Assembly (NCBI GenBank): GCA_024680595.1
Contig: JAILCB010000004.1
Coordinates: forward strand, 1 to 35,634
From: Lachnospiraceae bacterium
GTDB lineage: Bacteria; Bacillota; Clostridia; Lachnospirales; Lachnospiraceae
DNA: 35,634 nucleotides
Direction: 5' to 3'
The notes under the pieces are model-generated. The model made no database searches, had not been told where the DNA came from, and saw only the letters and a list, made by a program, of their open reading frames with translations. The position numbers were made by a program, and so were the translations under genes. Positions 14,640-34,241 of this stretch are shown here, piece by piece; the stretch's first letter is position 1; each line of letters starts with the position of its first letter.

Positions 14640-14912
14640 TGTGTAGGCGACGAGCCAAAGCCGTGGTGCAAGCTTGCTTGCAGACCACGGCTTACGGCGA
14701 CCGCTCATCATCGAGCAAGCTTGCTTGCGAGATGATAGCGGCGTAGCCGGAATCGAGTAGGGGAGCTTCCCACCCCTACTCAATTAGCATAATACCGGCA
14801 AGCGAATGCATGCTTGCATGTAAATTCATTTGTCGGTCGTAAGAACATGGAGCACGAAGTGCGGGATGTTTGCGTGTGAAATCTTGTAGGGGAGCTTTCC
14901 CCTACTCGATTT
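14640..14912. repeat. Dispersed hairpin-rich repeat composite (second cluster)
   Basis: 14794-14912 is the near-identical reverse complement of about 188-304; 14706-14735 is the exact reverse complement of a 30-mer near 34050. Confidence 0.85.
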
Positions 14913-15051: not shown

Positions 15052-16143
15052 ATGGGATCTTTTAGCGCATTTTTGAAGAAGAAGGATATTGAGATTTCTG
15101 CACGCCGTTATGGGATTGAGGCATTAGGTGCCATGGCACAGGGACTTTTTTGTTCCCTGCTGATTGGCACTATTATTAATACCATAGGAACTCAGTTCGG
15201 TATTGGTTTTTTGACTGAACCGGTGGCTATAGTGGCAGGGGTGGAGTATACGGTCGGTGGACTTGCCAGCGCAATGAGCGGGCCGGCTATGGCTGTGGCC
15301 ATTGGCTATGCCTTGCATTGTCCGCCTCTTGTTTTATTCTCTCTTATTACAGTTGGTTTCGCTTCTAATGCACTTGGAGGGGCAGGCGGACCTTTGGCCG
15401 TTCTTTTCATTGCCATAATTGCAGCTGAAATTGGAAAGGCTATTTCAAAAGAGACCAAAATCGACATACTTATTACGCCATTAGTTACTATCGCTGTTGG
15501 AATTCTTCTTTCTGCGCTGCTGGCCCCGGCTCTTGGAAAGCTGGCCATGCTTGTAGGTAATTTCATTATGTGGGCGACGGATCTGCAGCCTTTCCTTATG
15601 GGTATTTTTGTTTCTGTTGTTGTTGGGGTTGCGCTTACCCTGCCAATTTCTTCCGCGGCTATTTGTGCTGCTTTTTCCCTGACAGGGCTGGCAGGAGGGG
15701 CTGCGGTAGCAGGCTGTTGTGCTCAAATGGTGGGGTTTGCTGTTATGTCTTTTCCTGAGAATAAGGTGGGAGGTCTCATTTCACAGGGAATTGGTACGTC
15801 TATGCTCCAGATGGGGAATATCGTGAAGAATCCTAGAATTTGGATTGCCCCTATTGTTACCAGTGCTATTACGGGTCCTATCGCTACCTGTGTATTTCAT
15901 CTGCAGATGAACGGGGCTCCGGTTTCTTCGGGCATGGGAACATGTGGATTTGTTGGTCAGATTGGGGTCTATTCCGGCTGGGTAAACGATATTGCTAATG
16001 GCTTAAAGGATTCCATTACAAGCTTTGACTGGATTGGCCTTATTTTGATTTCATTTGTTCTGCCTGCAATTCTGTGTCCTTTGATTAATCAGGTCTGTGT
16101 AAAGCTGGGCTGGGTGAAGAAGGGCGATATGACCTTGCAGTGA
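15052..16143 (+). CDS. PTS_EIIC_2-like integral membrane transport protein
   Basis: 363 aa, many hydrophobic segments, GGAGGPLAVLFIAIIAAEIGKA, PISSAAICAAFSLTGLAGGAAVAGCCAQMVGFAV. Confidence 0.75.
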   Translation: MGSFSAFLKKKDIEISARRYGIEALGAMAQGLFCSLLIGTIINTIGTQFGIGFLTEPVAIVAGVEYTVGGLASAMSGPAMAVAIGYALHCPPLVLFSLITVGFASNALGGAGGPLAVLFIAIIAAEIGKAISKETKIDILITPLVTIAVGILLSALLAPALGKLAMLVGNFIMWATDLQPFLMGIFVSVVVGVALTLPISSAAICAAFSLTGLAGGAAVAGCCAQMVGFAVMSFPENKVGGLISQGIGTSMLQMGNIVKNPRIWIAPIVTSAITGPIATCVFHLQMNGAPVSSGMGTCGFVGQIGVYSGWVNDIANGLKDSITSFDWIGLILISFVLPAILCPLINQVCVKLGWVKKGDMTLQ

Positions 16144-16160
16144 AGAAATGATATGTTTTA

Positions 16161-16440
16161 TAGGATTGCTTTGCGCTAAACCGCTTTGACTGGCTTGGGT
16201 TCGGGAATAAGTGGAGAGGCCTTGCAATGCAATTGATATAGGATTGCTTTGCGCTAATCCGCTTTGACTGGCCTGGGTCCTGGAATAAGGGATAAGCCTT
16301 GCACTAGATGTAGGATTGCTTTGCACTAAACCGATTTGACAGTCTTTAGTCCGGGAATAAGTGGAGAGGCCTTGCAATAGGATATGGGGTTGTTTTGCAC
16401 AAATCTTCTGTGACAGGCCTGGGTTCGGGATAGGGTGATA
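16161..16440 (+). repeat. Four degenerate tandem repeats (about 72-78 bp) downstream of the PTS-IIC gene
   Basis: 'taggattgctttgc(g/a)cta' at 16161, 16239, 16311 and a diverged copy near 16384; shared 'gggaataag...ggccttgca'. Confidence 0.85.
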
Positions 16441-16477
16441 GGATTAGCTAAAATTTATGTGAGATGATTTTATGGAT

Positions 16478-16502
16478 GTTAACATAATTAAATTATGTTA
16501 AC
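16478..16502. repeat. Palindrome GTTAACATAATTAAATTATGTTAAC
   Basis: Perfect 11-nt inverted arms; similar palindromes at 31136-31172 and near 33005. Confidence 0.7.
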
Positions 16503-16541
16503 TGGTTTCATAAGAGCTTTATATTTGAAAGGGGAATTTAT

Positions 16542-17222
16542 TTGAATCAGAGTAAAAATGAGTCCGGAATTGCTGTTATTTTTGACATGGACGGGGTCAT
16601 TTTCGATACAGAACGGCACTGTATCAGTTGCTGGAAGAAGTTAGCCGCTGAACATGGTTTTGAGGATGTGGAGCCGACCTTTGTTAAATGCATTGGCACG
16701 ACAGAGGAGGTAACCAGGCATATTTTTTTGGAGCGCTATGGGGAGGATTTTCCTTTTAGCCAATATGATAGAGAGGTCCGGAGGCAGACCAGGGAGTTAT
16801 CCGATGCGGGAAAGCTTCCGCTTAAAACAGGGGTTTTTGAGATTCTTTCCGAATTACAGAATAGAGAAATCCCTCTAGCTCTAGGCTCTTCGAATGACAC
16901 GGTTTCTATTCGCAGAGAATTAGAGAATGCCGGCCTTCTTTCATATTTCTCCCAGGTTATAGGCGGAGATATGGTGAAGAGGGGAAAGCCATTTCCGGAT
17001 ATATTCCTTTCTGCCGGGGAGGCTTTATTGAAAACTCCTAAGCAGTGCTATGTTATTGAAGATTCCTTTAATGGAATCCGTGCGGCGGGTAGAGCGGGCA
17101 TGCATCCAATTATGGTTCCTGATATGTTGGAACCGGATTCAGAGATTCGGGATATTGCTGAAATCGTGCTGCCTTCTCTGCATGAGGCTCTTTCATATTT
17201 ACTTGCCGTAATTGACGCCTAA
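16542..17222 (+). CDS. HAD-superfamily hydrolase, beta-phosphoglucomutase-like
   Basis: 226 aa; FDMDGVIFDTE, GSSNDT, GKPFPDIFL, VIEDSFNGIRAA. TTG start with aaggggaa RBS. Confidence 0.88.
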   Translation: MNQSKNESGIAVIFDMDGVIFDTERHCISCWKKLAAEHGFEDVEPTFVKCIGTTEEVTRHIFLERYGEDFPFSQYDREVRRQTRELSDAGKLPLKTGVFEILSELQNREIPLALGSSNDTVSIRRELENAGLLSYFSQVIGGDMVKRGKPFPDIFLSAGEALLKTPKQCYVIEDSFNGIRAAGRAGMHPIMVPDMLEPDSEIRDIAEIVLPSLHEALSYLLAVIDA

Positions 17223-17235
17223 AAGGAGGTAGAGA

Positions 17236-18483
17236 ATGGGAAATGTAATTATTGGACAGTCGGGTGGACCGACGGCAGTTATTAATTCCAGCCTTGCGGG
17301 AGCCATTAGTGCAGCAAAGAAGGGTGGAGTCCCAAAGATTTATGGGATGCATTACGGAATAGAGGGTTTCTTGAAAAAGGATATTATTGATATTGAAGAC
17401 TATCTCTTTGATATTGATGATCTTTCTATCCTGAAGCGGACACCGTCTGCATTTCTTGGATCCTGCAGATATAAGCTTCCAAAAATTGAAGGGAACGAGG
17501 AAGTTTATGCTACAATGTTTGATACCTTGGATGAGTATGATATAGAATATTTCATGTATATTGGCGGAAATGATTCTATGGATACCATCAAGCAGCTTTC
17601 GGATTATGCCGAGGCACACGGCAAGAAGCAGAAGTTTATGGGAATTCCCAAGACTATCGATAATGATTTGCCTATTACGGATCATACTCCGGGTTTTGGT
17701 TCCGCCGCTAAGTTTATTGCCACATCTATGAGGGAGATTATATGCGATAATGAAAGCTTTGGTGCTAATGACCCCAAAATCTGTGTGGTAGAGATTATGG
17801 GAAGAAATGCCGGCTGGCTCACTGCCGCATCGGTACTTTCAAGGGCTACGGATAGTACCGGGCCTGATTTGATTTATCTACCCGAGAATCCTTTTGATGA
17901 GAAAGCATTTCTGGAACGGGTTGAGGATTTGACGAAAAAGAAGAAATCCATTGTTATTGCTGTTTCCGAAGGACTTAAGGATGCGGAAGGAAAGCTTATC
18001 TGTGAGCAGAACGATGACTATGCATTTGTGGATGCTTTTGGACACAGACAGCTCTCCGGCTGCGGAAAGATTCTCTCAAATAAAATCGCCAGAACTATGG
18101 GATACAAGACCCGTGCCATTGAGTTTTCACTTCTTCAGCGCTGCGCGACCCATCTGGCCAGCCGCGTGGATATTGACGAGGCCTATGATGTTGGTTATAT
18201 TGCCTGTGAGGCGGCCCTTGCGGGCGAGACTGGGAAAATGGTGGTTATCAACGTTACCCACAGGGAGCCGTATGTCGTGTCCTATGAGCTTGCGGATATT
18301 CACAATATTGCTAATATAGAGAAGAAGATGCCTAATGAGTGGATTATTAATGAGGGGACTTTTGTATCGGATGAATTTGTTAAGTATGTAAAGCCCCTGG
18401 TAGTTGGTTCTCTAACGCCCTATTATGCCGGAGGTGTTCCCAAGCACATATCTCTGAAAAATAAGAGAAGACATTTGAATTAA
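17236..18483 (+). CDS. Phosphofructokinase, probably PPi-dependent
   Basis: 415 aa; IGQSGGPTAVINSSL, YIGGNDSMDT, PKTIDNDL, MGRNAGWL; GGND (not GGDG-type) signature. Confidence 0.9.
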   Translation: MGNVIIGQSGGPTAVINSSLAGAISAAKKGGVPKIYGMHYGIEGFLKKDIIDIEDYLFDIDDLSILKRTPSAFLGSCRYKLPKIEGNEEVYATMFDTLDEYDIEYFMYIGGNDSMDTIKQLSDYAEAHGKKQKFMGIPKTIDNDLPITDHTPGFGSAAKFIATSMREIICDNESFGANDPKICVVEIMGRNAGWLTAASVLSRATDSTGPDLIYLPENPFDEKAFLERVEDLTKKKKSIVIAVSEGLKDAEGKLICEQNDDYAFVDAFGHRQLSGCGKILSNKIARTMGYKTRAIEFSLLQRCATHLASRVDIDEAYDVGYIACEAALAGETGKMVVINVTHREPYVVSYELADIHNIANIEKKMPNEWIINEGTFVSDEFVKYVKPLVVGSLTPYYAGGVPKHISLKNKRRHLN

Positions 18484-18700
18484 GCATTTGCCTTTGCGGT
18501 TTTTGCAATGCGAAAAGGAAACGCATACTTTTACTTGTGGTACCGGCAGGTTTTTCTACCAGTAGTTGTGTTTCGGGGCGTCTTATTATATAATATATAA
18601 GATTAATAGTTGAATTACTGCCTAATATATTGGTGGCAGTGGAATTTGTTTTGTCAATTTGGTTTTCCAAATGGATAAATGATAAAGGAGGAAGTTCTGA

Positions 18701-19123
18701 ATGATACAATTAATTGTTGGTGAAAAGGGTAAGGGCAAGACAAAAGTACTTTTGGATAAGGTTGCTGAGACCGCACAGAATGCGAAAGGTAACGTTGTTT
18801 TCGTAGATAAGGATATGTCTCATATCTATGAAATTAAGAATACTGTACGTCTTGTCAATATCAGTGAGTATGGTATTACTAATGGGGATGAGTTTTTAGG
18901 ATTTTTGGCGGGACTCATTGCCGCTGATCACGATTTAGAGGATCTTTTCATCGATAGGTTTTTACGTGTATCATTTCATCCTACTGCGGAGGATTCTGTC
19001 TCTGTTCTCCGTAAACTGGATACTCTCAGCACAAAGTTTGACGTTAGGGTTACAGTTTCCCTTTCTTGCGGAAAGGATGAGGTTCCTGAGGATCTTCAGG
19101 ACAAGATTATTGTAGCACTGTAA
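18701..19123 (+). CDS. Small P-loop protein
   Basis: 140 aa; Walker A VGEKGKGKTK; RBS aaaggagg. Confidence 0.8.
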   Translation: MIQLIVGEKGKGKTKVLLDKVAETAQNAKGNVVFVDKDMSHIYEIKNTVRLVNISEYGITNGDEFLGFLAGLIAADHDLEDLFIDRFLRVSFHPTAEDSVSVLRKLDTLSTKFDVRVTVSLSCGKDEVPEDLQDKIIVAL

Positions 19124-19312
19124 GCATTGTCTGATTTACGGGAAATTCAGGTTATTGCGGGGTTACCTCTTTATCTGAAATTGATGATGTACTGTAAATA
19201 TGGTTTTTTTGAATTATTATTGTTACTGATTTATGATTGAGCTGGGGCTGCCGCCTGCGCAGAGAATGCGCAGGTTGACAGCCTCGAAACTGTTCAGTCT
19301 GAAAGTTGTAAT

Positions 19313-21379
19313 ATGAGTCAAAAGCAGCATAAGAAAAAAAAGAATAATAGCCGGAGACGGACCTCTGGAAATGCTGCCGGACGCAGAGAGAGACAGAACA
19401 GATCCGCGAATTCCACATCTAGAACTAATTCTAGGTCAGATTTCAGTTCTTCTGATTCCGGTTCCGGTCTGACACCCCAGAGAGAGGCATATTTAAGAAA
19501 TGCCGGTGTTCAGAATGACCCAGATCGGGATGTCCGGGATACGTCGGCCAGACAATTTATCCGTTCTCAAAGTAAAGGCTCGGGCTATAACTTTTCATCT
19601 TCCGGTTCTCGTAATTCTCGCCCTTTCGCCGGGTTTGACAGTGGTAACAGTCGATCCTATGGCCGCGCAGGGTCCGGAATGACAAACGGTGGCTTATACG
19701 GGGGAGATGGTTCCCAATATTCCTCCGCCGGATTTACTGGTGGCTGGAATACTCGTAATAGCGGAGGAAATGACGGTTATTCGGGTAATTATGGCAGAAC
19801 GGGAGGGAATCGTTTTTCTTCTAACTCAGGTAGGAGAAATGCTTATGGTTCCGGAGGTATAGGTAACTCTCACAGCGATGGGGCAAATAGTAGATTATCC
19901 GGCAGGAATGGCGGGAATTCCGGCAGGGAGAGGTCGGCCACGGAGAGGCAAAAGGCCAGGGAGCTCCGCAGTCGGGAAGAAAGGCTTGCCCGGGACAATA
20001 AAGTCACAAAAATCCGTCGACATTCCTTGAATAGGATGAATCTGGGTATGGTCATTTTTGTGGCAATTTTCATTTATATTCTTATACTTCTCTATATTTC
20101 TTCACAGAAAACAACAATTACAGGCTATGAGGTGAAGCTGGGTTCTCTGGCCGTAAACCGTACAGGGCGTGGCGTGATTGTCCGGGCCGAGAAAGTATAT
20201 AGTGTTAAGGAATATGGCTATATTAATTATTATGCCAGGGAGACTGAGCGATTATCCACGGGTGAGCTTGTCTATTCCATTGATGAAAGTGGCGCGCTTT
20301 CCAGTATGGCGGGAGAAGGCGGGGCAGGAGAAATAGAATTAGACGAGTCTAATCTCTTGGAGCTTAGGGATGAGATTGTAAATTATCGGAAGACTTTTTC
20401 TGATAGTGATTTTAAGAGTATATATAGTTTTAAGAATTCTCTAAATGGGGTTGTTGCCCGTCTTACCAATGAAAGTATGCTTGCGGCACTTCAGAGTATA
20501 TCAGGAAATGCGGCCAAAAATTCCATTGCCATGGGCTATTGCGATACCAGCGGAATTGTTATTTTGGGTACGGATGGTTTAGAAAGCCTTATTCCCCAGG
20601 CCGTGGGAAAGAGTACTTTTAATGAGGATGAGCATCAGGAACAGCGACATGCGGATAATACCATTGTTTCTGTCAGTGATAATGCCTTCAAGATCATTAC
20701 AGATGAGAATTGGTCTGTGGTTGTTCCCTGGAATGAGGAGTGGGAAGGCGAGATTGAGAATGGGAAGTTTATCAATGTACTGTTTCTCAAAAACGGCATG
20801 ACTTCCTGGGCCCAGACAACGATTCTGCACAATGAGGACGGTGATTATCTCCAGCTTTCCTTCACTAATTCTATGGTTACCTATTCAAAGGATAGGTACT
20901 TGGATATTGAACTTTTGACATCGAAGAAGGAAGGCTTGAAAATCCCGAATTCTTCTTTGGTGAAAAGGGAGTTTTATGTCATTCCCAGAGCATTTTTGAC
21001 GAGAGGCGGCGATTCTGATTCTGAAGGCTTTATTAGGCAGGCTTATCTGGAGGACGGGTCCCTGTCCACGGAGTTTGTAGAGGCAAAGCTCTATGATGAG
21101 GTGCCGGAGGGCGTTTATGTGGATATAAATGTTTTCTCGCCGGGAGATACCATACTAAAACCTGATTCAACTGAACGCTTTACTGTTAGTCCCAAGGCCT
21201 CTCTGACCGGTGTCTATAATATGAATAATGGATATGCGGATTTCACAAAAGTGAATGTTCTATATTCTAATAAGGAGTATTCTATTGTAGAGTCGGGCAC
21301 CATGTACGGGCTGAGTGTTTATGATCATATTGTTTTGAACGGGGCTGATGTCAGTGACGATGATTTTGTTTATGAGTGA
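19313..21379 (+). CDS. HlyD-like membrane protein with a long Ser/Gly/Arg/Asn-rich N-terminal region
   Basis: 688 aa; disordered N-terminus to ~aa 230, one TM segment (MVIFVAIFIYILILLYISS), HlyD-type C-terminus; upstream of yggS-sepF as in related Firmicutes. Confidence 0.75.
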   Translation: MSQKQHKKKKNNSRRRTSGNAAGRRERQNRSANSTSRTNSRSDFSSSDSGSGLTPQREAYLRNAGVQNDPDRDVRDTSARQFIRSQSKGSGYNFSSSGSRNSRPFAGFDSGNSRSYGRAGSGMTNGGLYGGDGSQYSSAGFTGGWNTRNSGGNDGYSGNYGRTGGNRFSSNSGRRNAYGSGGIGNSHSDGANSRLSGRNGGNSGRERSATERQKARELRSREERLARDNKVTKIRRHSLNRMNLGMVIFVAIFIYILILLYISSQKTTITGYEVKLGSLAVNRTGRGVIVRAEKVYSVKEYGYINYYARETERLSTGELVYSIDESGALSSMAGEGGAGEIELDESNLLELRDEIVNYRKTFSDSDFKSIYSFKNSLNGVVARLTNESMLAALQSISGNAAKNSIAMGYCDTSGIVILGTDGLESLIPQAVGKSTFNEDEHQEQRHADNTIVSVSDNAFKIITDENWSVVVPWNEEWEGEIENGKFINVLFLKNGMTSWAQTTILHNEDGDYLQLSFTNSMVTYSKDRYLDIELLTSKKEGLKIPNSSLVKREFYVIPRAFLTRGGDSDSEGFIRQAYLEDGSLSTEFVEAKLYDEVPEGVYVDINVFSPGDTILKPDSTERFTVSPKASLTGVYNMNNGYADFTKVNVLYSNKEYSIVESGTMYGLSVYDHIVLNGADVSDDDFVYE

Positions 21380-21656
21380 CTTTCCGAATGCGTTAGGAAA
21401 CCGCATTTGGAAAGTCCACGCTGTGCGCGGGACAGGGACATCGCTTTGCGAGGATTGGTCATGTAGGTATGATTTTCCGAATGCGTTAGGAAACCGCATT
21501 TGGAAATTCCACGCTGTGCGCGGGACAGGGACATCGCTTTGCGAGGATTGATCGTGTAGGTATGACTTTCCGAATGCGTGAGGGAACTGCATTTGGAAAT
21601 TCCACGCTGTGTATGGGACAGGGTTATCGCTTTGCTATGGCCGGTCACTATAGGTT
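21378..21656 (+). repeat. Three tandem 93-bp repeats starting at the stop codon of the 688-aa gene
   Basis: Copies begin at 21378, 21471 and 21564; each has the hairpin tttccgaatgcg...cgcatttggaaa. Confidence 0.93.
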
Positions 21657-21694
21657 TGATTGTGTTTTTTTATGCTTTTATATTTGGAGGGAAC

Positions 21695-22399
21695 ATGGAG
21701 GATATTAATATTCAGGAGAATCTCAAAGCTGTTGAAGAGCGGATTCAGGAGGCCTGCAAGAAAAGCGGACGGAAAAGAGAAGATGTCACTCTTGTGGCGG
21801 TCAGTAAAACAAAGCCTGTTTCTTTGATTATGAAGGCATATGAGGCCGGTATTAGGGATTTCGGGGAGAATAAGGCCCAGGAGCTGGCGGCTAAATACGA
21901 GGAGATGCCAAAGGATATCCGCTGGCATATGATAGGCCATTTGCAGAGAAATAAGGTTAAATATATTATTGATAAGGCTGCTTATATCCACAGTGTCGAT
22001 TCCCTGGCCCTGGCAGAGGAGATTAGCCGTCAGGCTGTTAAGCATGGGGTTACTGCCCATGTATTCGTGGAGATTAATATCGGTGACGAGGAAACGAAAT
22101 TTGGTGTCCCTTATGATGAGGTTACAGAATTAGTTGACAAAATAATTGGTTTACCAAATTTATCGGTTGAGGGCTTAATGTGCATTGCTCCAAACGTTGA
22201 TAATTCTGAAGAAAATCGAAAATTTTTTATAAAAATGCGTGAAAAATCTGTTGACATAAATTTAAAACTAAGTCATAATGTAACGGTCAGCGTTTTATCT
22301 ATGGGTATGACAGGAGACTATCAGGTGGCTATTGAAGAGGGGGCCACCATGATACGTGTTGGTACTGGGATTTTCGGAGAACGCACTTATAAAGTATGA
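21695..22399 (+). CDS. yggS: YggS-family pyridoxal phosphate homeostasis protein
   Basis: LVAVSKTKP, FGENKAQE, WHMIGHLQRNK, MGMTGDYQVAIEEGATMIRVGTGIFG. ATG at 21695 with ggaggg RBS; the tracked start at 21578 lies in the repeats. Confidence 0.93.
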   Translation: MEDINIQENLKAVEERIQEACKKSGRKREDVTLVAVSKTKPVSLIMKAYEAGIRDFGENKAQELAAKYEEMPKDIRWHMIGHLQRNKVKYIIDKAAYIHSVDSLALAEEISRQAVKHGVTAHVFVEINIGDEETKFGVPYDEVTELVDKIIGLPNLSVEGLMCIAPNVDNSEENRKFFIKMREKSVDINLKLSHNVTVSVLSMGMTGDYQVAIEEGATMIRVGTGIFGERTYKV

Positions 22400-22477
22400 C
22401 GGAATCGGGAAATTATATTCTTATTAAGAATCGCTTTAGGAGGGAGCCTGATTCAGTCTCTTAAGGGAGGGAAAAAG

Positions 22478-23023
22478 ATGGGTTTGCTGGATAAGTTTGT
22501 ACATGCGATGAATATTAAGGATGAGGACGAAGATTACGGATACGATGAGGGTTATGATGATGACGGATACATGGATGATGAACCGGATGAACCCGTCAGA
22601 AATGAGAAGCGTGGATTCTTCAGCAGGAATAGAAAGGCAGATATAGAGGAAGAGGAACCTAAGGCTTCCAAGGGAAAGATTACACCTATGCGTCAGTCAA
22701 AGCGCCGCGCAGATTCAAGCGACCGTGAAATTTGTATGTTTAAGCCTGTTAATTCCGATGAATCCTGTGATATTATGGATGCACTGCTTTCGGACAGGAC
22801 TGTTGTATTGAACCTTGAGGGACTGCATGATGATGTAGCTCAGAAGATTATTGATACTTTATCAGGAGCCTGCTATGCCCTTAGCGGGAATATGCTGAAG
22901 ATTTCCAATTATATTTTTATTGTTGCACCTAAGAGTGTTGAGCTTTCGGGGGATTCCCAGGGAAACGTGCTTCGGGAAGCTTTCGAGCTTCCACTGGCGG
23001 CAGCATCCGGCGGACGGATCTAG
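22478..23023 (+). CDS. sepF: Cell division protein SepF
   Basis: 181 aa; MGLLDKFVHAMNI, acidic linker, DUF552-like domain. Confidence 0.9.
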   Translation: MGLLDKFVHAMNIKDEDEDYGYDEGYDDDGYMDDEPDEPVRNEKRGFFSRNRKADIEEEEPKASKGKITPMRQSKRRADSSDREICMFKPVNSDESCDIMDALLSDRTVVLNLEGLHDDVAQKIIDTLSGACYALSGNMLKISNYIFIVAPKSVELSGDSQGNVLREAFELPLAAASGGRI

Positions 23024-23341
23024 GACAGGATCCATATTTCGAACATAGCGGTACTACTTATTTTCATTCCGGAGAACGGAGAGAATTTGGGGATTATGGT
23101 AATATTAATGACCGTTCCCTGCGTGTTTATCTAAAGGATGATCCTAATAGGCCGCGTTCTTTTTAGACAGTTTTGATTTAGTCATTGTGTATACTATGAC
23201 TTTTGCTGGTTTTTGATTTATATACGGAATGATCGTGACTGTATTGTATAGAACGGTTACGATTATTCCGTTTTGTTTTTCTAATAGCAGGGAAGTTGAG
23301 ATTGTTGTTCATAATAGTTTCATGAATGAGGAGTTAGTTTT

Positions 23342-24460
23342 ATGCAGAAAAATGTTCATATTGGCAGCACTGTGACCGGAGATGCTTATGATATAATCAT
23401 AGAGAATAATTTTGAGAGTATCATTCCCGAGCTTGAGAAGCTGGGGAGTCATGATAGACGAGTTCTTATAATTAGTGATACAAATGTAGCCCCGGTCTAC
23501 TTAGAAGAGCTTTCAAGGACTCTGGAGTCTTCCTTTAAGTCTGTTTATTCCCTTGTCCTTCCTGCAGGGGAGTCCTATAAAAATCTAGACCAGGTCCGGC
23601 TTGTCTTGAGCAGGCTTTTGGAATTAGAATTTGATAGGAAAGATTTCCTTGCTGCTCTGGGCGGGGGTGTTATTGGAGATCTGACAGGTTTTGCGGCTGC
23701 CATCTACAGGAGGGGGATTCGTTTCATTCAGATTCCCACTACATTACTTTCACAGACAGATAGCTCTATAGGCGGCAAAACTGGAGTTGATCTTGATTCC
23801 TATAAGAATATGGTAGGGGCCTTTCATCAGCCTTCATTGACCTATATTAATGTCGATACCTTGAATTCACTTTCACCTAGAGAATTCTCGGCCGGTATGG
23901 GGGAAATTATTAAACACGGCCTCATCAAGGATTCGGATTATTTGGATTTTGTCATATCAAATAAGGATGAAATCCTGGCCCACCAAAGTGATATTCTGGC
24001 AAGGATGATTGAGCGCAGCCTACAGATTAAAGCCCAGGTGGTGGAGGAGGATCCCAAAGAGCTGGGAATTCGAGCTATATTGAACTTCGGACATACAATT
24101 GGTCACGCTATCGAAAAATGGATGAATTTTTCCTTACTTCACGGGGAGTGTGTTTCGCTTGGTTCAATAGCCGCTGCATATATCTCTCTAAAACGGGGTT
24201 TCCTAAAACCGGAAGAATATGATAAAATCCATAATGTGTTTTCTGCCTTTTCATTACCCGTTTCCCTTATCGGACATCTAGGCGGTATTGCTGAGAATAA
24301 AGCCATTGAAGAGATTGTCAGGCTTACCAAATCCGATAAGAAGATGGATGGGGGTAAGGTCCGTTTTATCCTTCTCCAAGGGATTGGCAATGCCGTAATT
24401 GACAAATCCATTAGGGATGAGGAGATTGAAGAAGCTATTAAGAAAGGGATCCTGTCGTAA
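23342..24460 (+). CDS. aroB: 3-dehydroquinate synthase
   Basis: 372 aa; GGGVIGDLTGFAAAIYRRGIRFIQIPTTLLSQTDSSIGGKTGVD, NFGHTIGHAIE. Confidence 0.96.
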   Translation: MQKNVHIGSTVTGDAYDIIIENNFESIIPELEKLGSHDRRVLIISDTNVAPVYLEELSRTLESSFKSVYSLVLPAGESYKNLDQVRLVLSRLLELEFDRKDFLAALGGGVIGDLTGFAAAIYRRGIRFIQIPTTLLSQTDSSIGGKTGVDLDSYKNMVGAFHQPSLTYINVDTLNSLSPREFSAGMGEIIKHGLIKDSDYLDFVISNKDEILAHQSDILARMIERSLQIKAQVVEEDPKELGIRAILNFGHTIGHAIEKWMNFSLLHGECVSLGSIAAAYISLKRGFLKPEEYDKIHNVFSAFSLPVSLIGHLGGIAENKAIEEIVRLTKSDKKMDGGKVRFILLQGIGNAVIDKSIRDEEIEEAIKKGILS

Positions 24461-24463
24461 AGT

Positions 24464-25189
24464 ATGAAACCTGTTTTTCGATTTAGATATATAATAATTG
24501 ATTTTATTCTGATTGCCGGCTTTTTGTTTCTCGATCAATATACTAAGAACCTCGCCGTCCTATATTTGAAGGGAAATAAACCCATTCCCATTATTCGGGA
24601 TTTCCTTGTTCTGGAGTATCTGGAGAACAGGGGCGCCGCATTTGGTATGCTGCAGAATCAAAAGGTTTTCTTTCTGCTGATAGGAACAGTATTTGTGGCT
24701 CTAATGATCTTTGCCCTTTTTCGTCTGCCGACGACCCGAAAATACAGGATTCTCCGTTTCTTTATCTGTCTTATCACGGCGGGTGCGGCCGGGAACCTTA
24801 TTGACAGGGCTATGCTGGACTATGTTATTGACTTCATTTATGTAATCTACATTCATTTTCCGATTTTTAATGTGGCAGATATCTATGTCACAGTATCGGC
24901 GGCGGCCTTATTGATCCTGCTCCTTTTTGTTTACAAAGAGGAGGATTTGGATATGAAGAAAGCCAGGAATCCCAAGGTGCATTCCTCTATGCGGAGGGAT
25001 AAAGAGGAAAATTCGAATTCAGCGGCAGGTTCAACTCTGGCTACGGAAACAGCTAAGAAGGCAAAGAATGAGGCTGTCGAGGGAGTGCAGGCGTCAGAGG
25101 GTGGAGCTGCTGAATCTGCCAAAGCCGCTGAGGGTGATGAGGTAAAAAAGTCAGAGGCTTCTGAAGACAATAAGGCTGAGGACAATTAG
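24464..25189 (+). CDS. lspA: Lipoprotein signal peptidase with Ala/Glu/Lys-rich C-terminal tail
   Basis: 241 aa; NRGAAFGML, AGAAGNLIDRA, FPIFNVADIYVT; tail from ~aa 165 is low complexity. Confidence 0.93.
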   Translation: MKPVFRFRYIIIDFILIAGFLFLDQYTKNLAVLYLKGNKPIPIIRDFLVLEYLENRGAAFGMLQNQKVFFLLIGTVFVALMIFALFRLPTTRKYRILRFFICLITAGAAGNLIDRAMLDYVIDFIYVIYIHFPIFNVADIYVTVSAAALLILLLFVYKEEDLDMKKARNPKVHSSMRRDKEENSNSAAGSTLATETAKKAKNEAVEGVQASEGGAAESAKAAEGDEVKKSEASEDNKAEDN

Positions 25190-25349
25190 GCTAAAGAGGC
25201 TGGAGGGTCTGAGTCAGCCGAGGGAGTTCCTGAATCTGCCAAAGCCGCTGAGGGTGATGAGGAAAAAAGTCAGAAGCTTCTGAAGACAATAAGGCTGAGG
25301 ACAATTAGGCTAAAGAGGCTGGAGGGTCTGAGTCAGCTGAGGGAGTTCA
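25111..25349 (+). repeat. Tandem ~120-bp duplication spanning the lspA stop codon
   Basis: 25111-25230 and 25231-25349 are nearly identical (few substitutions, one 1-nt deletion); both contain gaggacaattaggct with the TAG. Confidence 0.95.
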
Positions 25350-25475
25350 TTCGTTCGAGGGTGGAGCTGCTTGGAATGAATATATAATACCAAACAAATG
25401 TTCTAATGTCAATCATGAAATTAGAATTATATCCTGATTTATAGAAATTATGAAATTACTCTTATTTGGGGAGCG

Positions 25476-26450
25476 TTGGGAGGAGCATTGGGAGATTATT
25501 TTGAGGAAGAGCTTCAGGAAGAAGATTTCGATAACGGGGATCAGGTGTCTCTTGTAGTATCTGAGGAAGAGGCAGGTACTCGTATTGATAAATATATATC
25601 TGACAAGGTAAAGGAATTATCCAGATCTCGGTGCGCAAAGCTTATTGAGACCGGCCAGGTTTTTCGCAATGAAGAGGTTGTCGGAAAGCCAAAATTCAGT
25701 GTCAGGGGCGGGGATTTGATTACAATTAGGCTCCCTGAGCCGGAGGAAATGGATATTCTTCCGGAAGATATTCCGCTCGAAATTCTCTATGAGGATTCGG
25801 ATGTATTAGTTATTAATAAGCCTAAAGGAATGGTTGTGCACCCTGCGCCGGGCCATTATTCCGGCACCCTGGTGAATGCCTTACTTTTCCACTGTAAGGA
25901 TTTATCCGGTATCAATGGGGTTCAACGGCCCGGAATTGTGCACCGTATTGATAGGGATACCACCGGCTCTCTTTTGGTTTGCAAAAATGATTTGGCCCAT
26001 CGCTCAATTGCGGACCAGCTCCATGTTCATTCCATCAAAAGGCAGTACCGGGCAATTGTTCATGGTCAAATCAATATGGATGGCAGGGTGGATGCGGCCA
26101 TTGGCAGGAGCCGTAAGGATAGGAAGCGGATGGCCGTGACTCCGGACGGCCGCAGGGCCGTTACTCATTATCATGTTCTGGCAAATTCCGGAAAGTTTAC
26201 CTATCTGGAATGTGAACTAGAGACGGGAAGGACCCATCAGATCCGAGTTCATCTTTCCCATATTGGGCATCCTGTGTTCGGAGATCCAGTATATGGCGGG
26301 GCGCATCCTGCCAGGGAAGAGGGACAGGCCCTGCATGCTATGACATTGGGCTTCCGCCAGCCCAGAACAGGCCAATATATTGAAGTAAGCGCACCCTTAC
26401 CGGATTATTTTCAGGAATTATTATCCAAATTATTTGGTATTAATGGATAG
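25476..26450 (+). CDS. rluD: RluD-family 23S rRNA pseudouridine synthase
   Basis: 324 aa; S4 domain, INKPKGMVVHPAPGH, GIVHRIDRDTTGSLLVCKN, GRTHQIRVHLSHIGHPVFGDPVYGG. Start may be TTG 25488. Confidence 0.93.
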   Translation: MGGALGDYFEEELQEEDFDNGDQVSLVVSEEEAGTRIDKYISDKVKELSRSRCAKLIETGQVFRNEEVVGKPKFSVRGGDLITIRLPEPEEMDILPEDIPLEILYEDSDVLVINKPKGMVVHPAPGHYSGTLVNALLFHCKDLSGINGVQRPGIVHRIDRDTTGSLLVCKNDLAHRSIADQLHVHSIKRQYRAIVHGQINMDGRVDAAIGRSRKDRKRMAVTPDGRRAVTHYHVLANSGKFTYLECELETGRTHQIRVHLSHIGHPVFGDPVYGGAHPAREEGQALHAMTLGFRQPRTGQYIEVSAPLPDYFQELLSKLFGING

Positions 26451-26625
26451 ATTAATGGGATTAGAGACTTGAAATCGCTAAATGCACCCTTGCCGGATAA
26501 TATGAAATTAGAGGATAGATATATAGTTAAGAGACTGGCAATAATTGCACCATTACCGGATAATTTGGAATTAAAGGATAGATGGTCAGGTTTAAGAGAT
26601 TGGCAATAAAGGTCATTGTACCTTG
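26391..26625 (+). repeat. Degenerate tandem repeats beginning in the 3' end of rluD and continuing past its stop
   Basis: 'gcaccctt(a/g)ccggat(a/t)at' at 26391 and 26484, 'gcaccattaccggataat' at 26547, partial copy near 26615. Confidence 0.85.
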
Positions 26626-26653
26626 ATAATAAAGGAAACGGAGGCAAATAATA

Positions 26654-27286
26654 ATGAAGTCAATAATTACTATAGGAAGGACATTTGGTTCGGGGGGCAG
26701 GGAGATAGGTGAAAAGCTTGCCGCTTATTATGGCATTAAATGCTATGATAAGGAGCTTTTGGCGAGGGCGGCGAAGGAGAGCGGACTGTGTGAGGAGGTT
26801 CTGACGGAACACGATGAGCGCTCCACCGGATCCTTTCTCTTTAATTTAGTAATGGATACCTATTCCTTCGGATATAATAATTCCTCCTTTGTAGATATGC
26901 CGGTGTCCCATAAGGTTTTTCTGGCTCAGTTTGACGCAATAAAGAAGATTGCGGAGGACGGGCCCTGTGTAATTGTGGGAAGATGCGCGGACTATGCACT
27001 GCAGGATTTTTCGAATGTTTTGAATATTTTTATATACGGAAAGAAGGAAGAGAGGATTAAACGGATTATGGAGCGCTTCTCCGATATTGATTCTCCTGAT
27101 AAGGCCTGGGACATGATTCGGAAAAAGGATAAGCAGAGGCGGAGCTACTATGATTATTATTCCACCAAGAAATGGGGGCATGTGAGCACCTATGATCTTT
27201 CCATTGATTCCGCTGTTTTAGGGATAGAGGGAACGGTAAAGCTGCTGACCCAGTTCATTGATGATAAGGAGGCCCTTTCGGACTAG
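26654..27286 (+). CDS. Cytidylate kinase-like family protein
   Basis: 210 aa; ITIGRTFGSGGREIGEKLAAYYGIKCYDKELL, VGRCADYAL. Confidence 0.9.
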   Translation: MKSIITIGRTFGSGGREIGEKLAAYYGIKCYDKELLARAAKESGLCEEVLTEHDERSTGSFLFNLVMDTYSFGYNNSSFVDMPVSHKVFLAQFDAIKKIAEDGPCVIVGRCADYALQDFSNVLNIFIYGKKEERIKRIMERFSDIDSPDKAWDMIRKKDKQRRSYYDYYSTKKWGHVSTYDLSIDSAVLGIEGTVKLLTQFIDDKEALSD

Positions 27287-27375
27287 AAGGGTGTTAGGAA
27301 TTTAATAAGGAAGCTCATCTAAACAAATATGGATATGGATTAAGCGGTTTGGAGCTTGGGAGATATAATCGATTT

Positions 27376-27399
27376 CCCGGGGCAGTTATTGGCCCCGGG
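27376..27399. terminator. Terminator-like hairpin between convergent genes
   Basis: cccggggc-agttattg-gccccggg flanked by ttt/aattt. Confidence 0.7.
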
Positions 27400-27450
27400 A
27401 ATTTATTGGGCTTATGGTGCTTTGAATGTCATTCTCTTAGCTAAGGGAAT

Positions 27451-27760
27451 CGTCGTTTTTGGCCATTGGGGCAATTCTATAGGCCAGGGGTACGGTCATT
27501 CTTGTCCATGGGTTCATCTTTTTTGAACCGTAGAATCGTCGCTCTTGTCTATGGGTTCATCTTTTTAGAACCGGAGAATCGTCGCTCTTGTCCATGGGTT
27601 CATCATTTTAGAACCGGAGAATCATCGCTCTTGTCCATGGGTTCATCCTTTATGTTAGGGGAATCGTCACTCTTGTCCATGGGTTTACCCTTTAGGCCTG
27701 GGGTATCGCTATTTTTGTCCATAGGATCAACCTTTAGGTCTGGTGTATCGTCCTTATTAT
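27451..27760 (-). repeat. 42/43-bp tandem repeats covering the 3' end of the AI-2E permease gene and continuing past its stop
   Basis: 'cttgtccatgggtt' units at 27501, 27544, 27587, 27630, 27672, 27714; spacing 43 nt downstream of the stop and 42 nt inside the ORF. Confidence 0.93.
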
Positions 27761-29165
27761 CCGAAGGGGAAGAGTTTCCCTCCCATGCCTTCTCTTTTTC
27801 CGGGTCCTCTTTATTGGCCTTGCGGTCGATTTTGTTAATGATTCTCGAAATAAGCTTCTTTCTTTCGCCGATGCCCCTTTTATGTTTGATGACATTTGCC
27901 TTCTTTTTGGAATTTTTATCTTCTAAGGGCAGTTCATCTGCCTTTAGATAATTGTCGGTATTGGTGGACAAACCTCTTTTGGCCAATTTTTTATTGACCT
28001 GATGACCGATCTCATAATATATGATGGCGCATATAGGAGTCCCGAGATACATACCGGGAACTCCGAACAGACCGCCGCCCACCAGAATGGCAGTTAGAAC
28101 CCAGAATCCGGAAAGTCCCATGGAATCGCCAAATAGCTTAGGTTTAATAATATTTCCGTCACATTGCTGCAAAACGACAATCATTATGGCAAAGTAGACG
28201 GCCTTAATGGGATCAATAATCAAAATGATAAGTGCACAGGGGACGCCTCCCATAAAGGGGCCGAAAAAGGGGATGATATTGGTAATTCCCACCACAAGGC
28301 TGACCAGCACCGGATAAGGAATCTGCAGGACCATACAGGCTATAAAACATATCATACCAATTAGGAAAGAGTCTACAATGGAACTGATGATATAGCGGTT
28401 AAAGGTATTATTGATATAGAATACTTCATCGATAATATCCTGGGCCGTATCCTCTGAACTGAAAGCGAAGATCATTTTTCTGGAAACAGCCAGAAAGTGT
28501 TCTTTAGAAAGCAGGATATAGACGGCAAAAATCAGGCCTAATATTAAGTTCATAAGGAATGAAAGACTCTTTAGAATTCCTGAGGTAACGGAGGAGGCTA
28601 TTTGATTGACATAGGGAAGGGCGCTTTCAATGGCCTCATTGGTCCGGCTATATAATTTGGGCAGATACTCATTTGCCCATCCGTTTAATGTTGGATTTTC
28701 CTTGACCAGATCGTCCAGCCAGGAACGCAGGCTGTCCATGTAGCCGGTGATTTTGTCTATACTTAATAGACTGCGCAGACTGTTTAAGCTGGTAATTAGC
28801 TGTGGCACCACCAGCCGAAGGAACAGGGCTAAAACAGCCAATACAAATACAACGAGTAATGCAACCGAAATTTTTCGGATATTACGGCGTCCACGCAAAC
28901 CGGGCCGGATATTCATTTTTTGACAGACCATGGGAAGGGCCTTTTTCTCAAGCCAATTTAGAATGGGATTCAAGAGATAAGCCAAAACAAAGCCATAAAT
29001 GACCGGTTTTAAAACGCCTAATATAAATGCCAGAAATGAGGTAATTGATTGAATATTAAAAATGACATAGGCCATGATAATACTGGCCAGGATGACGAGG
29101 AAAGCGGTGACCCCCCATAAAAAATATTTTTTATTAAAGTGTAATTTCATAAATCCCCTTTGCAA
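27603..29165 (-). CDS. AI-2E family transporter-like permease with repetitive Asp/Lys-rich C-terminal tail
   Basis: 520 aa; multiple TM segments, GITNIIPFFGPFMGGVPCALIILI; C-terminal 14-aa repeats KPMDKSDDSPNIKD/EPMDKSDDSPVLK. Confidence 0.88.
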   Translation of the reverse strand: MQRGFMKLHFNKKYFLWGVTAFLVILASIIMAYVIFNIQSITSFLAFILGVLKPVIYGFVLAYLLNPILNWLEKKALPMVCQKMNIRPGLRGRRNIRKISVALLVVFVLAVLALFLRLVVPQLITSLNSLRSLLSIDKITGYMDSLRSWLDDLVKENPTLNGWANEYLPKLYSRTNEAIESALPYVNQIASSVTSGILKSLSFLMNLILGLIFAVYILLSKEHFLAVSRKMIFAFSSEDTAQDIIDEVFYINNTFNRYIISSIVDSFLIGMICFIACMVLQIPYPVLVSLVVGITNIIPFFGPFMGGVPCALIILIIDPIKAVYFAIMIVVLQQCDGNIIKPKLFGDSMGLSGFWVLTAILVGGGLFGVPGMYLGTPICAIIYYEIGHQVNKKLAKRGLSTNTDNYLKADELPLEDKNSKKKANVIKHKRGIGERKKLISRIINKIDRKANKEDPEKEKAWEGNSSPSDNKDDTPDLKVDPMDKNSDTPGLKGKPMDKSDDSPNIKDEPMDKSDDSPVLK

Positions 29166-29274
29166 AAAACAAATTATATGGCAATATATCCTTATATAAT
29201 GATATAAAGATACCGCCGATTTTAAAACATGAGCATATTATAGCATAAATGAAGAAAAAAGGAGGAAAATATAA

Positions 29275-30939
29275 ATGTCTGAAAATATAAATCCTATCTT
29301 TGTGGTGGGGCACAAAAATCCTGATACAGATTCCATCTGTTCGGCCATTGCCTACGCGAATTTGAAAAATCAGATTTCTGACAAGGAGTATGTGCCCTGT
29401 AGGGCAGGCGATATTAGCAATGAGACTAAATTTGTTTTGCAGCGCTTTCATATGCCTGACCCGATGCTGATCAAGGATGTCAGAACCCAGATTCGGGATA
29501 TGGATTATCGTCGTATAGATGGACTTAGTGAGGATGTATCCTTAAAGGATGCCTGGAAATTGATGAGGGATGAGAACGTTGTGACCCTGCCGGTGACCAA
29601 GGGAACTCATCTGGAGGGTGTTATAGCCATGGCGGACATCGTCAAGTCCTACATGGATGTCCTGGATTCCAGGATTCTGACGGATGCCCATACCTGCTAC
29701 CGCAATATTGTAGAGACCCTGGATGGCAAGATGGTGGTTGGCGATATTAATGAATTTGCCGAAAAGGGTAAAGTTCTAATTGCGGCCGGAACGCCTGAGG
29801 TGGTCGAGAACTATATTGAGGAAGGGGACATCATTCTGCTGGGAAACCGTTATGACGTACAGCTCTGTGCCATTGAGATGAATGCCAGCTGTCTCATCGT
29901 ATGCGGAGGATCGGATGTCACCAAATCCATACAGAAGCAGGCAATTGCCAATAATTGTAAGATCATTACCTCGCCTCATGACACCTATACAGCGGCCAGG
30001 CTTATCAATCAGAGTATGCCTATTAGCCATTTCATGAGGGGGACGGATCTGGTTCTATTCCATTTGAATGATTATATTGATGATGTACAGCTGGTTATGT
30101 CCAAGGAGCGTCACCGTTATTTCCCTGTTCTGGATGAAAAGAACCAATATGCAGGCATTATTTCCCGCCGTAATTTCCTGGGAGCCCACAAGAAGCAGCT
30201 GGTTTTGGTGGATCATAATGAAATGAGCCAGGCCGTGAACGGGGCGGATTCGGCAGAAATTCTGGAAATCATTGATCACCACAGGCTGGGTACAATTCAG
30301 ACAACAGGACCCGTTTTCTTCCGTAACCAGCCTTTAGGCTGTACCTGTACCATTATCTATCAGATGTATAGGGAGAATGGTATCAAGATTGAGCCGAAGA
30401 TTGCCGGTATACTCTGTTCAGCTATTATTTCAGACACCCTCTTATTCCGTTCACCTACCTGTACGGAGGTGGATAAGGAGGCGGCCAAAATGCTGGCGGA
30501 AATTGCAGGAATCCGTCTGGAGCCCTATGCAAAGGAGATGTTCAAGGCGGGCAGCGACCTGTCCAGCAAGTCTCCGGAAGAAATTATTCATCAGGACTAT
30601 AAGAGGTTCACAATCCATGACCGTGCGGTCTGTATCGGACAGATAAGCGGTATGTCCACAGAGGATTTGGAAAAGACCGGGGAGAGTATCCGGGAGGAGC
30701 TTCAGAAAACGCTGAAAGAGGATAAGATTGACGATATTTTCTTCCTATTGACGAATATTCTGGATGAGTCCAGCGGGGTCATGGGGGTTGGCCTGGAGGC
30801 GGAGGAAGCCCTGCGCCGGGCATTTAAGGTCGAGCCCCAGGAGAATGGTATATTCCTGCTGAGGGGGGTGGTTTCCCGAAAGAAGCAGTTCCTGCCGGCC
30901 ATCGATGATGCCTTCCAGAGAATAGACAGTGAGTCTTGA
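29275..30939 (+). CDS. Manganese-dependent inorganic pyrophosphatase with inserted CBS/DRTGG-type regulatory region
   Basis: 554 aa; VVGHKNPDTDSICSAIAYA, VDHNEMSQAV, IIDHHRLGTIQT, SAIISDTLLFRSPTCT. Confidence 0.92.
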   Translation: MSENINPIFVVGHKNPDTDSICSAIAYANLKNQISDKEYVPCRAGDISNETKFVLQRFHMPDPMLIKDVRTQIRDMDYRRIDGLSEDVSLKDAWKLMRDENVVTLPVTKGTHLEGVIAMADIVKSYMDVLDSRILTDAHTCYRNIVETLDGKMVVGDINEFAEKGKVLIAAGTPEVVENYIEEGDIILLGNRYDVQLCAIEMNASCLIVCGGSDVTKSIQKQAIANNCKIITSPHDTYTAARLINQSMPISHFMRGTDLVLFHLNDYIDDVQLVMSKERHRYFPVLDEKNQYAGIISRRNFLGAHKKQLVLVDHNEMSQAVNGADSAEILEIIDHHRLGTIQTTGPVFFRNQPLGCTCTIIYQMYRENGIKIEPKIAGILCSAIISDTLLFRSPTCTEVDKEAAKMLAEIAGIRLEPYAKEMFKAGSDLSSKSPEEIIHQDYKRFTIHDRAVCIGQISGMSTEDLEKTGESIREELQKTLKEDKIDDIFFLLTNILDESSGVMGVGLEAEEALRRAFKVEPQENGIFLLRGVVSRKKQFLPAIDDAFQRIDSES

Positions 30940-30982
30940 GCTTACAGTATAGGGACGATAAAAAGAATCCATGTGACCAATT

Positions 30983-31009
30983 GCCGGGGCGGACAAGATC
31001 CGCCCCGGC
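30983..31009. other. Stable hairpin downstream of the pyrophosphatase gene
   Basis: gccggggcgga-caaga-tccgccccggc; a related degraded copy lies 64 nt downstream near 31045. Confidence 0.7.
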
Positions 31010-31135
31010 GGCATGTAGAAGGTAAAAAAGGGACTTATTATATTTTGCCGGGGGTGCTCAAATTCTGCTCCAGTGGCATGTAGAGGGTTAACAGGATTTC
31101 TTGTAGTCATTAGCTGAAATCAAATAGTATTATTG

Positions 31136-31178
31136 GGATAGGTTTACATAATAAATTTATGTAAACCTATCCTTTTTT
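31136..31178. terminator. Terminator between convergent pyrophosphatase and recombinase genes
   Basis: Perfect 16-bp stem ggataggtttacataa/ttatgtaaacctatcc, 5-nt loop, followed by tttttt. Confidence 0.92.
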
Positions 31179-31269
31179 CTTGCCATGAGCCTTTGGCATT
31201 AGCCTATAATCAAAGGTCGTCAGACCTGAGGCGGGGAGCAGGCCGGAATCGCGTCCGGAGTACAGCAAT

Positions 31270-31386
31270 AATCAATTGTCCTCCGACAAATATCTAACAG
31301 CGGCCTTCTCAGCTTCCGTACCGGCAAAGTAGTGGGTGGTAGAAGTAATGTGGAGGGATCCATAACAATGGAATTTGCCGAAATCT
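31270..31386 (-). pseudogene. Duplicated C-terminal fragment of the tyrosine recombinase, directly downstream of its stop
   Basis: Minus-strand translation ITSTTHYFAGTEAEKAAVRYLSEDN* versus parental ITSTTHYVASTEAEKAAVRNLSEDN*; period 117 bp. Confidence 0.93.
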
Positions 31387-31388
31387 AA

Positions 31389-32444
31389 TCAATTGTCCTC
31401 CGACAAATTTCTAACAGCGGCCTTTTCGGCTTCCGTACTGGCAACATAATGGGTGGTGGAGGTAATAGAAGAGTGTCCCATGAGCTTCTGGACCTTCTCC
31501 AGGTCGCCTCCTGTGGCTTTTAACATGGTTTCCGCATAGGTACTGCGTAATTTGTGGGGGGTGATTCTGTCGGCCTCTGAGGGCACAGAGGCATTGATAT
31601 ATTTCTTTACCATGAGCTCCACGGACCTTACGCTGAGCCTTTTTCCGGATCGGTTAAGAAAAACCGCCTTTTCTGAAGCGACCGGATTATATATGTTTCT
31701 GCAGTCCAGATATTGCTGCAGATAGTATTCAGCTGTATCGCTGAAATATACGGTATCGAAATTCCCGCCCTTACGGAATACCTTAATGCTGTGTTTCTTG
31801 AAATTGATATCATTCAGGTCCATACCGACTAACTCGGAGACACGGATTCCGGTAGATAGGAATACATTCATAATTGCCAGGTCCCTGGGACCATTTTTTT
31901 CATGGAACTGGGCCTGCCTTTTAGTTAGGCCGTCACCGGTTTCAACAGCATCCAGGAAAAGGTTTTTATCATCCCTGTCCAGATAAATTACTTCCTTTTT
32001 TGGCAATTTGGCCCTGGTAATCAGTTCAATTGGATTGGACGAAACCATTTTTCTGACATACAGGTATTTCCAGAAGGTATTTAGGGCCACTGTATAGTGC
32101 TGGATGGTCGTTGGACTGCATTCTACATACTTTACAGAGCCGTCATTGCATTTTTGAGGATAATTTCTGAGATAATGCATGAATTCCACGATGTCCCGGT
32201 CATTGAGCCTGTCTAAATCCTCAAGGCTGATTTCAGCAATAGCTTTCTTGGCGAAATAAGGACTGGAATCATGAAGGAATGAAAAAAAGGTAAACAGCTG
32301 TCCGGCATAGGAATAAATGGACATGGCGCTGAGCCGGATTTCACGTTCCAGGAAATAATCATTTACAAAGCCGGGCATTTTCTTAATGATTTCATTTGCC
32401 TGTTGACGGACCTGGTTGTTTTTATCTTTTTTATAATTGGACAT
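31389..32444 (-). CDS. Tyrosine recombinase, XerS-like
   Basis: 351 aa; STGIRVSELVGMDL, RKGG, TPHKLRSTYAE, LMGHSSITSTTHYV. N-terminal KMPGFVNDYF...YSYAGQLFTFFSFL...ISLEDLDRLNDRDIVEFMHYLR resembles XerS. Confidence 0.85.
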   Translation of the reverse strand: MSNYKKDKNNQVRQQANEIIKKMPGFVNDYFLEREIRLSAMSIYSYAGQLFTFFSFLHDSSPYFAKKAIAEISLEDLDRLNDRDIVEFMHYLRNYPQKCNDGSVKYVECSPTTIQHYTVALNTFWKYLYVRKMVSSNPIELITRAKLPKKEVIYLDRDDKNLFLDAVETGDGLTKRQAQFHEKNGPRDLAIMNVFLSTGIRVSELVGMDLNDINFKKHSIKVFRKGGNFDTVYFSDTAEYYLQQYLDCRNIYNPVASEKAVFLNRSGKRLSVRSVELMVKKYINASVPSEADRITPHKLRSTYAETMLKATGGDLEKVQKLMGHSSITSTTHYVASTEAEKAAVRNLSEDN

Positions 32445-32681: not shown

Positions 32682-32767
32682 TCAAGGAGCAAATGAAAAC
32701 AGCTGTAGAATGTAAGAATACAAATCAAGGAGCAAATGAAAACAGCTGTAGAATGTAAGAATACAAA
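32682..32767 (+). repeat. Perfect 43-bp tandem duplication containing an RBS and start codon
   Basis: tcaaggagcaaatgaaaacagctgtagaatgtaagaatacaaa twice, exact. Confidence 0.97.
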
Positions 32768-33549: not shown

Positions 33550-33594
33550 TGTGTCAAGAGAAATCAGAAAAAAATCGAACAAATTTTCGAACAA

Positions 33595-34190: not shown

Positions 34191-34241
34191 ACGTTCGGCT
34201 TTAGAGACAAATTTCATCTCGGCGGCTCTGTGATAAAAAAA

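Follow-up and report, generated by a model that had tools for sequence, protein, structure and literature searches.

The genome of this rumen-type gut bacterium probably owes its many tandem arrays to an excess of tandem duplications of 30-150 bp that is specific to the lineage, affects the whole genome and is filtered by selection. A preliminary description of the window, i.e. the whole stretch of 35,634 nucleotides that was analysed, had reported repeats at the 3' ends of six genes, and a sequence basis is present in each of the six. The bias towards 3' ends is best read as largely due to the selective filter, with C-terminal diversification as the exception. The density of the arrays, the lack of relationship between their units, their position, their reading-frame phase and their decay are direct observations on the sequence, while we infer the molecular event and what sets this lineage apart from its congeners.

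Genomes and array detection

The window corresponds to contig C100 in a MAG (G000) of 3.2 Mb in 318 contigs, 85% complete and 4% contaminated. Arrays with a period of at least 30 bp were surveyed in 1.11 Mb (1109 kb) of this MAG with TRF, using one setting throughout, and the loci in the window were examined by TRF and by direct alignment. The comparison genome is 400 kb of the 4.09-Mb chromosome of the congener G032. For other congeners the density was taken from 3.5-kb loci, together with loci of at most 21.5 kb in seven named relatives. The relatives, one genome per species, are rumen-type Lachnospiraceae (G013 and G030 belong to the same genus), and 658 kb of their sequence was scanned in total as a partial sample. 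Gene calls are home-made and the starts are less certain than the stops. The basis is one incomplete MAG, one 400-kb comparison genome and small samples.

Excess of tandem arrays

The survey found 189 arrays, corresponding to 0.17 per kb and 3.4% of the bases, compared with none in locally shuffled sequence of the same genome and 3 in the 400 kb of G032, an excess of about 23-fold. The relatives pooled have 10 arrays in 658 kb (binomial P about 1e-26 against G000). The comparison with G032 bears out the impression that something unusual is present. With permissive TRF scoring the contrast with G032 is only about 3-fold (0.23 vs 0.07 per kb), and our reading is that weak matches then enter the count for either genome. 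In a partial search of the literature, we found no described bacterial chromosome that matches this density of 30-150 bp arrays.

The array-rich trait is not necessarily unique to G000, as arrays are also found at the lspA locus of the congeners G014, G017 and G024, which may share the duplication-rich state. In these three (loci L157, L145 and L156, respectively) LspA has a long C-terminal tail, with open frames of 516, 291 and 344 aa, and the tandem arrays lie inside or near lspA.

An alternative is that duplications are born at an ordinary rate and are only weakly removed, so that they accumulate and age under low deletion bias and weak selection on non-coding DNA. The high age of the copies (see below) would agree with this, and so would the median gap between genes, which is 153 bp in the array-free gaps of G000 compared with 95 bp in all gaps of G032. 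However, the enrichment extends to coding sequence, with 52 arrays in 1109 kb of G000 vs 1 in 400 kb of G032, the called coding fraction is similar in the two genomes (0.78 vs 0.80), and the phase of the arrays and the gene starts are under strict selection. We consider weak removal unlikely compared with an excess of duplications that is filtered by selection.

That the arrays are an assembly artefact, or the result of mixed genomes in a chimeric MAG, is scarcely credible. The fragmentation, incompleteness and contamination of the MAG and the perfect 43-bp duplication close to the end of the window would fit such an origin, but the copies differ by about 12% in the median, which is beyond what an assembler would invent, and every coding array is in frame. 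Contig ends are not enriched in arrays either (4 seen vs about 7 expected), and collapsed arrays at contig ends are rejected on the same count.

Arrays in the window

The repeats found in the window are listed in Table 1.

Table 1. Tandem arrays and other repeats in the window. In the columns: the locus, the positions, the strand, the repeat unit with its copies, and the location relative to the gene.
Locus	Positions	Strand	Unit and copies	Location
PTS-IIC	16143-16452	+	72-78 bp, about 4 copies (from 16161), 60-90% identical to the first	starts about 18 bp past the stop
HlyD-like 688-aa gene	21377-21659	+	93 bp, 3 copies	first base on the stop codon TGA
lspA	25093-25348	+	119 bp, 2.1 copies, 96% matches	crosses the TAG stop
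rluD	26420-26610	+	decayed 63 bp, 2-3 copies, 71%	downstream of the gene
AI-2E permease	27467-27735	-	about 6 copies, spacings 43, 43, 43, 42, 42 bp	crosses the stop
Tyrosine recombinase	31269-31466	-	81-bp direct repeat, 89%, 117-bp spacing, 36-bp spacer	gene end and downstream
Extra array	32682-32767		43 bp, two identical copies	between genes, upstream of the recombinase
Palindromic family	33591-34220 (array 33662-34008)		132 bp	different kind of repeat

At three genes the repeats are as first described. The array of the HlyD-like gene does begin on the stop codon, its three units cover 21377-21655, and its copies 2 and 3 have 96% and 77% identity to copy 1. The C-terminus of this protein is conserved, with relatives aligning to query residue 687 or 688 and adding 0-6 aa, and the gap to the YggS gene is 315 bp here vs 4-162 bp in seven of eight relatives. 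The repeat of about 120 bp across the lspA stop is confirmed, with its 2.1 copies at 25103-25348; copy 1 codes for part of an enlarged C-terminal tail and copy 2 is downstream of the stop. LspA is 241 aa long compared with about 185-200 in most relatives. Also confirmed are the 42/43-bp spacings of the AI-2E permease array and its crossing of the stop, which is located at 27603-27605 within the array. Both 42-bp spacings, which are in frame, are on the coding side, while the 43-bp spacings are outside the coding sequence or straddle the stop, and this pattern shows the selective filter at the level of single bases. LspA and the AI-2E permease are the cases with enlarged C-terminal tails, and the length of these tails varies in array-free relatives too.

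For the other three genes the earlier account needs correction. The PTS-IIC array is real by TRF and alignment; it only follows the gene end and does not cross the stop. Behind rluD there are two clear 63-bp copies at 26479-26604 (local alignment score 60 vs a shuffled maximum of 27), but the 93-bp repeat that had been proposed to reach into the coding end comes down to an 18-bp match at chance level (score 26 vs 28 for chance). This array also follows the stop without crossing it, and RluD ends at a conserved position. For the recombinase the last 26 codons and the stop (31386-31466) are indeed repeated at 31269-31349 (score 117 vs a shuffled maximum of 25). The alignment covers just 81 of the 117 bp, which makes this a direct repeat with a spacer and not a 117-bp tandem repeat; no paralogous source was found elsewhere in the genome.

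The BMC genes are free of arrays, as had been pointed out, but this is uninformative since 15 kb are expected to contain 2.6 arrays (P(0)=0.08). The palindromic family is dispersed and is found at 1-260, 14642-14911 and 33591-34220 of the window, with the core AATCGAGTAGG...CCTACTCGATT. It occupies about 65 places in the 1.11 Mb of G000, sometimes at contig ends. Comparison with Rfam gave no match in the window, neither for this family nor for the array units.

Properties of the repeat units

The units are almost all mutually unrelated and each array is separate. Among the 189 units there are 10 similar pairs, mostly neighbours on the same contig or members of the dispersed family. This rules out a shared mobile unit, and a MIRU-like interspersed family is rejected on the same ground.

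On the gene strand the units are G-rich, coding and non-coding alike, with 32-38 GGG per kb vs 21-23 in controls, and runs of T are rarer (1.2 vs 4.7 per kb). Their folding is not in excess of control intergenic sequence. Hairpins or terminators as a class are excluded by the absence of a folding excess, the fewer T-runs and the lack of an Rfam match in the window.

The arrays might be selected elements, i.e. terminators, RNA stabilisers or MIRU-like regulators that act at operon junctions. Their position behind stops agrees with this, and about 16% of the intergenic gaps of G000 contain an array. On the other hand, the units are unrelated, lack Rfam matches in the window and are less structured than control intergenic sequence, the orthologous junctions of relatives are without arrays, and coding sequence also has an excess. 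We regard a function as selected elements as highly improbable.

Placement relative to genes and reading frame

When whole arrays are placed at random, 34 arrays cross a stop alone, where 16-18 are expected, and a start alone is crossed by 2, where about 17 are expected. A stricter null places single units on the genome with the arrays collapsed. Here, stop-crossing (34 vs 6.4 expected, 5.3x) and intergenic arrays (99 vs 33, 3.0x) are in excess, while start-crossing (2 vs 6.6, 0.30x) and coding arrays (52 vs 141, 0.37x) are depleted. Stops are thus strongly preferred over starts, in line with the preliminary description. Array coverage of the genes rises from 0.6% at starts and about 1% within gene ends to 5% at stops and 12% at +90 to +150.

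The period is divisible by three in all 52 coding arrays, compared with 44 of the 137 others, which are split 44/53/40 over the three phases. Along the gene the coding arrays are evenly distributed (10, 12, 8, 8 and 14 per fifth of gene length). The preliminary description had proposed a mechanism that acts on gene ends; since coding arrays are present evenly from start to stop and all in frame, we conclude instead that the generator works everywhere and that selection keeps the least harmful events. The check that the preliminary description had set against its own proposal, i.e. repeats of equal frequency inside genes or at 5' ends, has a divided outcome: 5' ends are depleted, while gene bodies carry many, though only in-frame ones. 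The 52 in-frame arrays give rise to protein segments that are repetitive and mostly of low complexity, in a variety of genes (e.g. L053:16701, L112:16259, L066:3695).

Of the 36 arrays that cross a stop, 34 have it within the first copy, which leaves the protein unaltered. The suggested diversification of C-termini is therefore rare, with the AI-2E permease, where the array extends into the coding tail, and, in a milder form, lspA among the exceptions.

It has to be considered whether gene 3' ends are targeted and duplicated through transcription termination, R-loops or replication conflict. The stop-crossing excess of 5.3x is larger than the intergenic one of 3.0x, the units carry a G bias on the gene strand (32 GGG vs 21-23 per kb), and convergent and co-directional gaps have more arrays per kb than divergent gaps. 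Against this, the in-frame arrays are spread evenly along the coding sequence, by which we reject gene-end targeting as the main cause, the units are poor in T-runs and fold no more than controls, and the G bias is found in coding units as well. Targeting is very unlikely as a general explanation, but the difference between 5.3 and 3.0 leaves room for some genuine 3' preference beside the selective filter.

Age and divergence of the copies

The identity between adjacent copies is 60-100%, mostly 70-99%, with a median of 0.88. The gradation from nearly identical to highly decayed copies that had been described is therefore seen among many separate arrays. Identity of 99% or more is seen in just 3 of 343 copy pairs. 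The present-day formation of arrays may therefore be low, or near-identical copies may be hidden by short-read assembly.

In the coding copies, single changes are 132 synonymous to 168 non-synonymous, with an excess at third positions, and in non-coding copies about 58% of the changes are transitions. The synonymous excess and the transition bias indicate that the divergence came after the duplication, under normal mutation and selection. Error-prone copying at birth is rejected by this pattern, and so is a diversity-generating retroelement, since the differences between copies affect all bases with a transition bias and are not adenine-directed. In relatives, the orthologous neighbours are separated by short gaps or overlap; the distance from LspA to RluD is -197 to -25 there vs 286 in G000 by the same measure. 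The arrays are therefore net insertions in the lineage of G000.

Proposed origin and repair genes

According to the model that we favour, duplications of about 30-150 bp would arise de novo and genome-wide from whatever sequence lies locally, later grow to 2-6 copies and then decay through ordinary point mutation. Within genes, survival would be limited to in-frame events in tolerant, low-complexity stretches, and almost no duplication across a start or in the 5' leader would survive. Across or just behind the stop a duplication would cost almost nothing, since the intact gene end and the stop are retained in the first copy and the later copies are untranslated.

The most likely molecular event would be slipped-strand mispairing or template switching at short direct repeats. 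Among the young arrays, several have a direct repeat of 3-9 bp at their ends and two have one of 24-25 bp, while about half of the young two-copy arrays are without end homology, counted on only about 11 that can be judged. The direct repeats at array ends are compatible with either process but not diagnostic.

Among the repair genes tested, none is missing in G000. Loss of the PolA 5' nuclease, as in a flap endonuclease mutator, is rejected because the domain is apparently present, judged by a match on contig C250 (E 1.9e-62). MutS1/2, RecJ, XseA, two DinB-type polymerases, SbcD and MutL are all present, by which the loss of RecJ, XseA, DinB or SbcD is rejected as cause and the loss of MutS or MutL appears unlikely. 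No Ku was found in any of the 48 genomes of the genus examined, which rejects Ku-based end joining. To our knowledge, loss of mismatch repair is not expected to give duplications of 30-150 bp, and for this reason it is not proposed here.

The open frame of MutL (contig C205, 1060-3507) is 897 aa long compared with about 650 aa in congeners, and the matches to its N- and C-terminal domains are separated by about 950 bp, i.e. a long spacer.

Comparison with known repeat systems

The closest known case is that of the tandem repeats of the archaeal Borg elements. The arrays of G000 behave like these, but as they lack the perfection and the A-bias of Borg repeats we do not file them as members of that class. 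Borgs have many independent arrays with unique units throughout the genome, 20-76 per 0.6-1.1 Mb. About half or more of these arrays lie outside coding sequence, and in some the first unit belongs to a gene end; coding units are always divisible by three and often in disordered protein. The arrays are rare in related genomes, mostly perfect with three or more units, A-rich, and located on linear extrachromosomal elements of archaea (PMC9879509). Like in Borgs, the units of G000 are unrelated at many loci and some reach into gene ends, coding units are divisible by three while intergenic ones mostly are not (52/52 vs 44/137), the composition is biased between strands, and arrays are rare in close relatives as far as the partial sample goes, in which G014, G017 and G024 carry lspA arrays. 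In contrast to Borgs, the units of G000 are longer (30-150 bp), imperfect (median adjacent identity 0.88), and G-rich and T-poor on the gene strand instead of A-rich, and the genome is a bacterial chromosome-scale MAG. Counted in the way used for Borgs (perfect arrays of at least 3 units), it has 17 arrays in 1109 kb, which is below the Borgs.

The MIRU/VNTR loci of Mycobacterium tuberculosis have 40-100 bp units between genes, with one interspersed kind at 41 chromosomal places (PMC2734929). In both genomes there are intergenic regions inflated by repeats where relatives have a few bp, as between rnc and fpg in M. tuberculosis, but the units of G000 are not homologous between loci and their density is far higher. 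In Burkholderia pseudomallei, minisatellites have units of mostly 6-9 bp (3-16 bp) and a density of 70-102 arrays per Mb (PMC1853098). The arrays of G000 resemble bacterial minisatellites in being mostly intergenic with a triplet bias in genes, but they reach 170 per Mb counting only units of at least 30 bp.

A bolder proposal is that G000 is in a heritable mutator state for tandem duplications, in which a changed replication or repair factor or a genomic element makes 30-150 bp duplications all over the chromosome at well over 10x the usual rate. Such a state would be a bacterial counterpart of that in Borgs and would supply disordered protein segments and spacer DNA. We put it forward tentatively, as possible but doubtful.

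The puzzle is therefore what makes or keeps so many duplications, and not what targets gene ends. Few arrays of this size are found in the relatives sampled, and G000 has about 20-fold more than one congener. With their clear selective filtering by frame, start and stop, the arrays form a natural archive of mutation by small duplications in bacteria. G000 could reveal a factor that normally restrains small duplications, and it can serve as a bacterial point of comparison for the unexplained Borg repeats.
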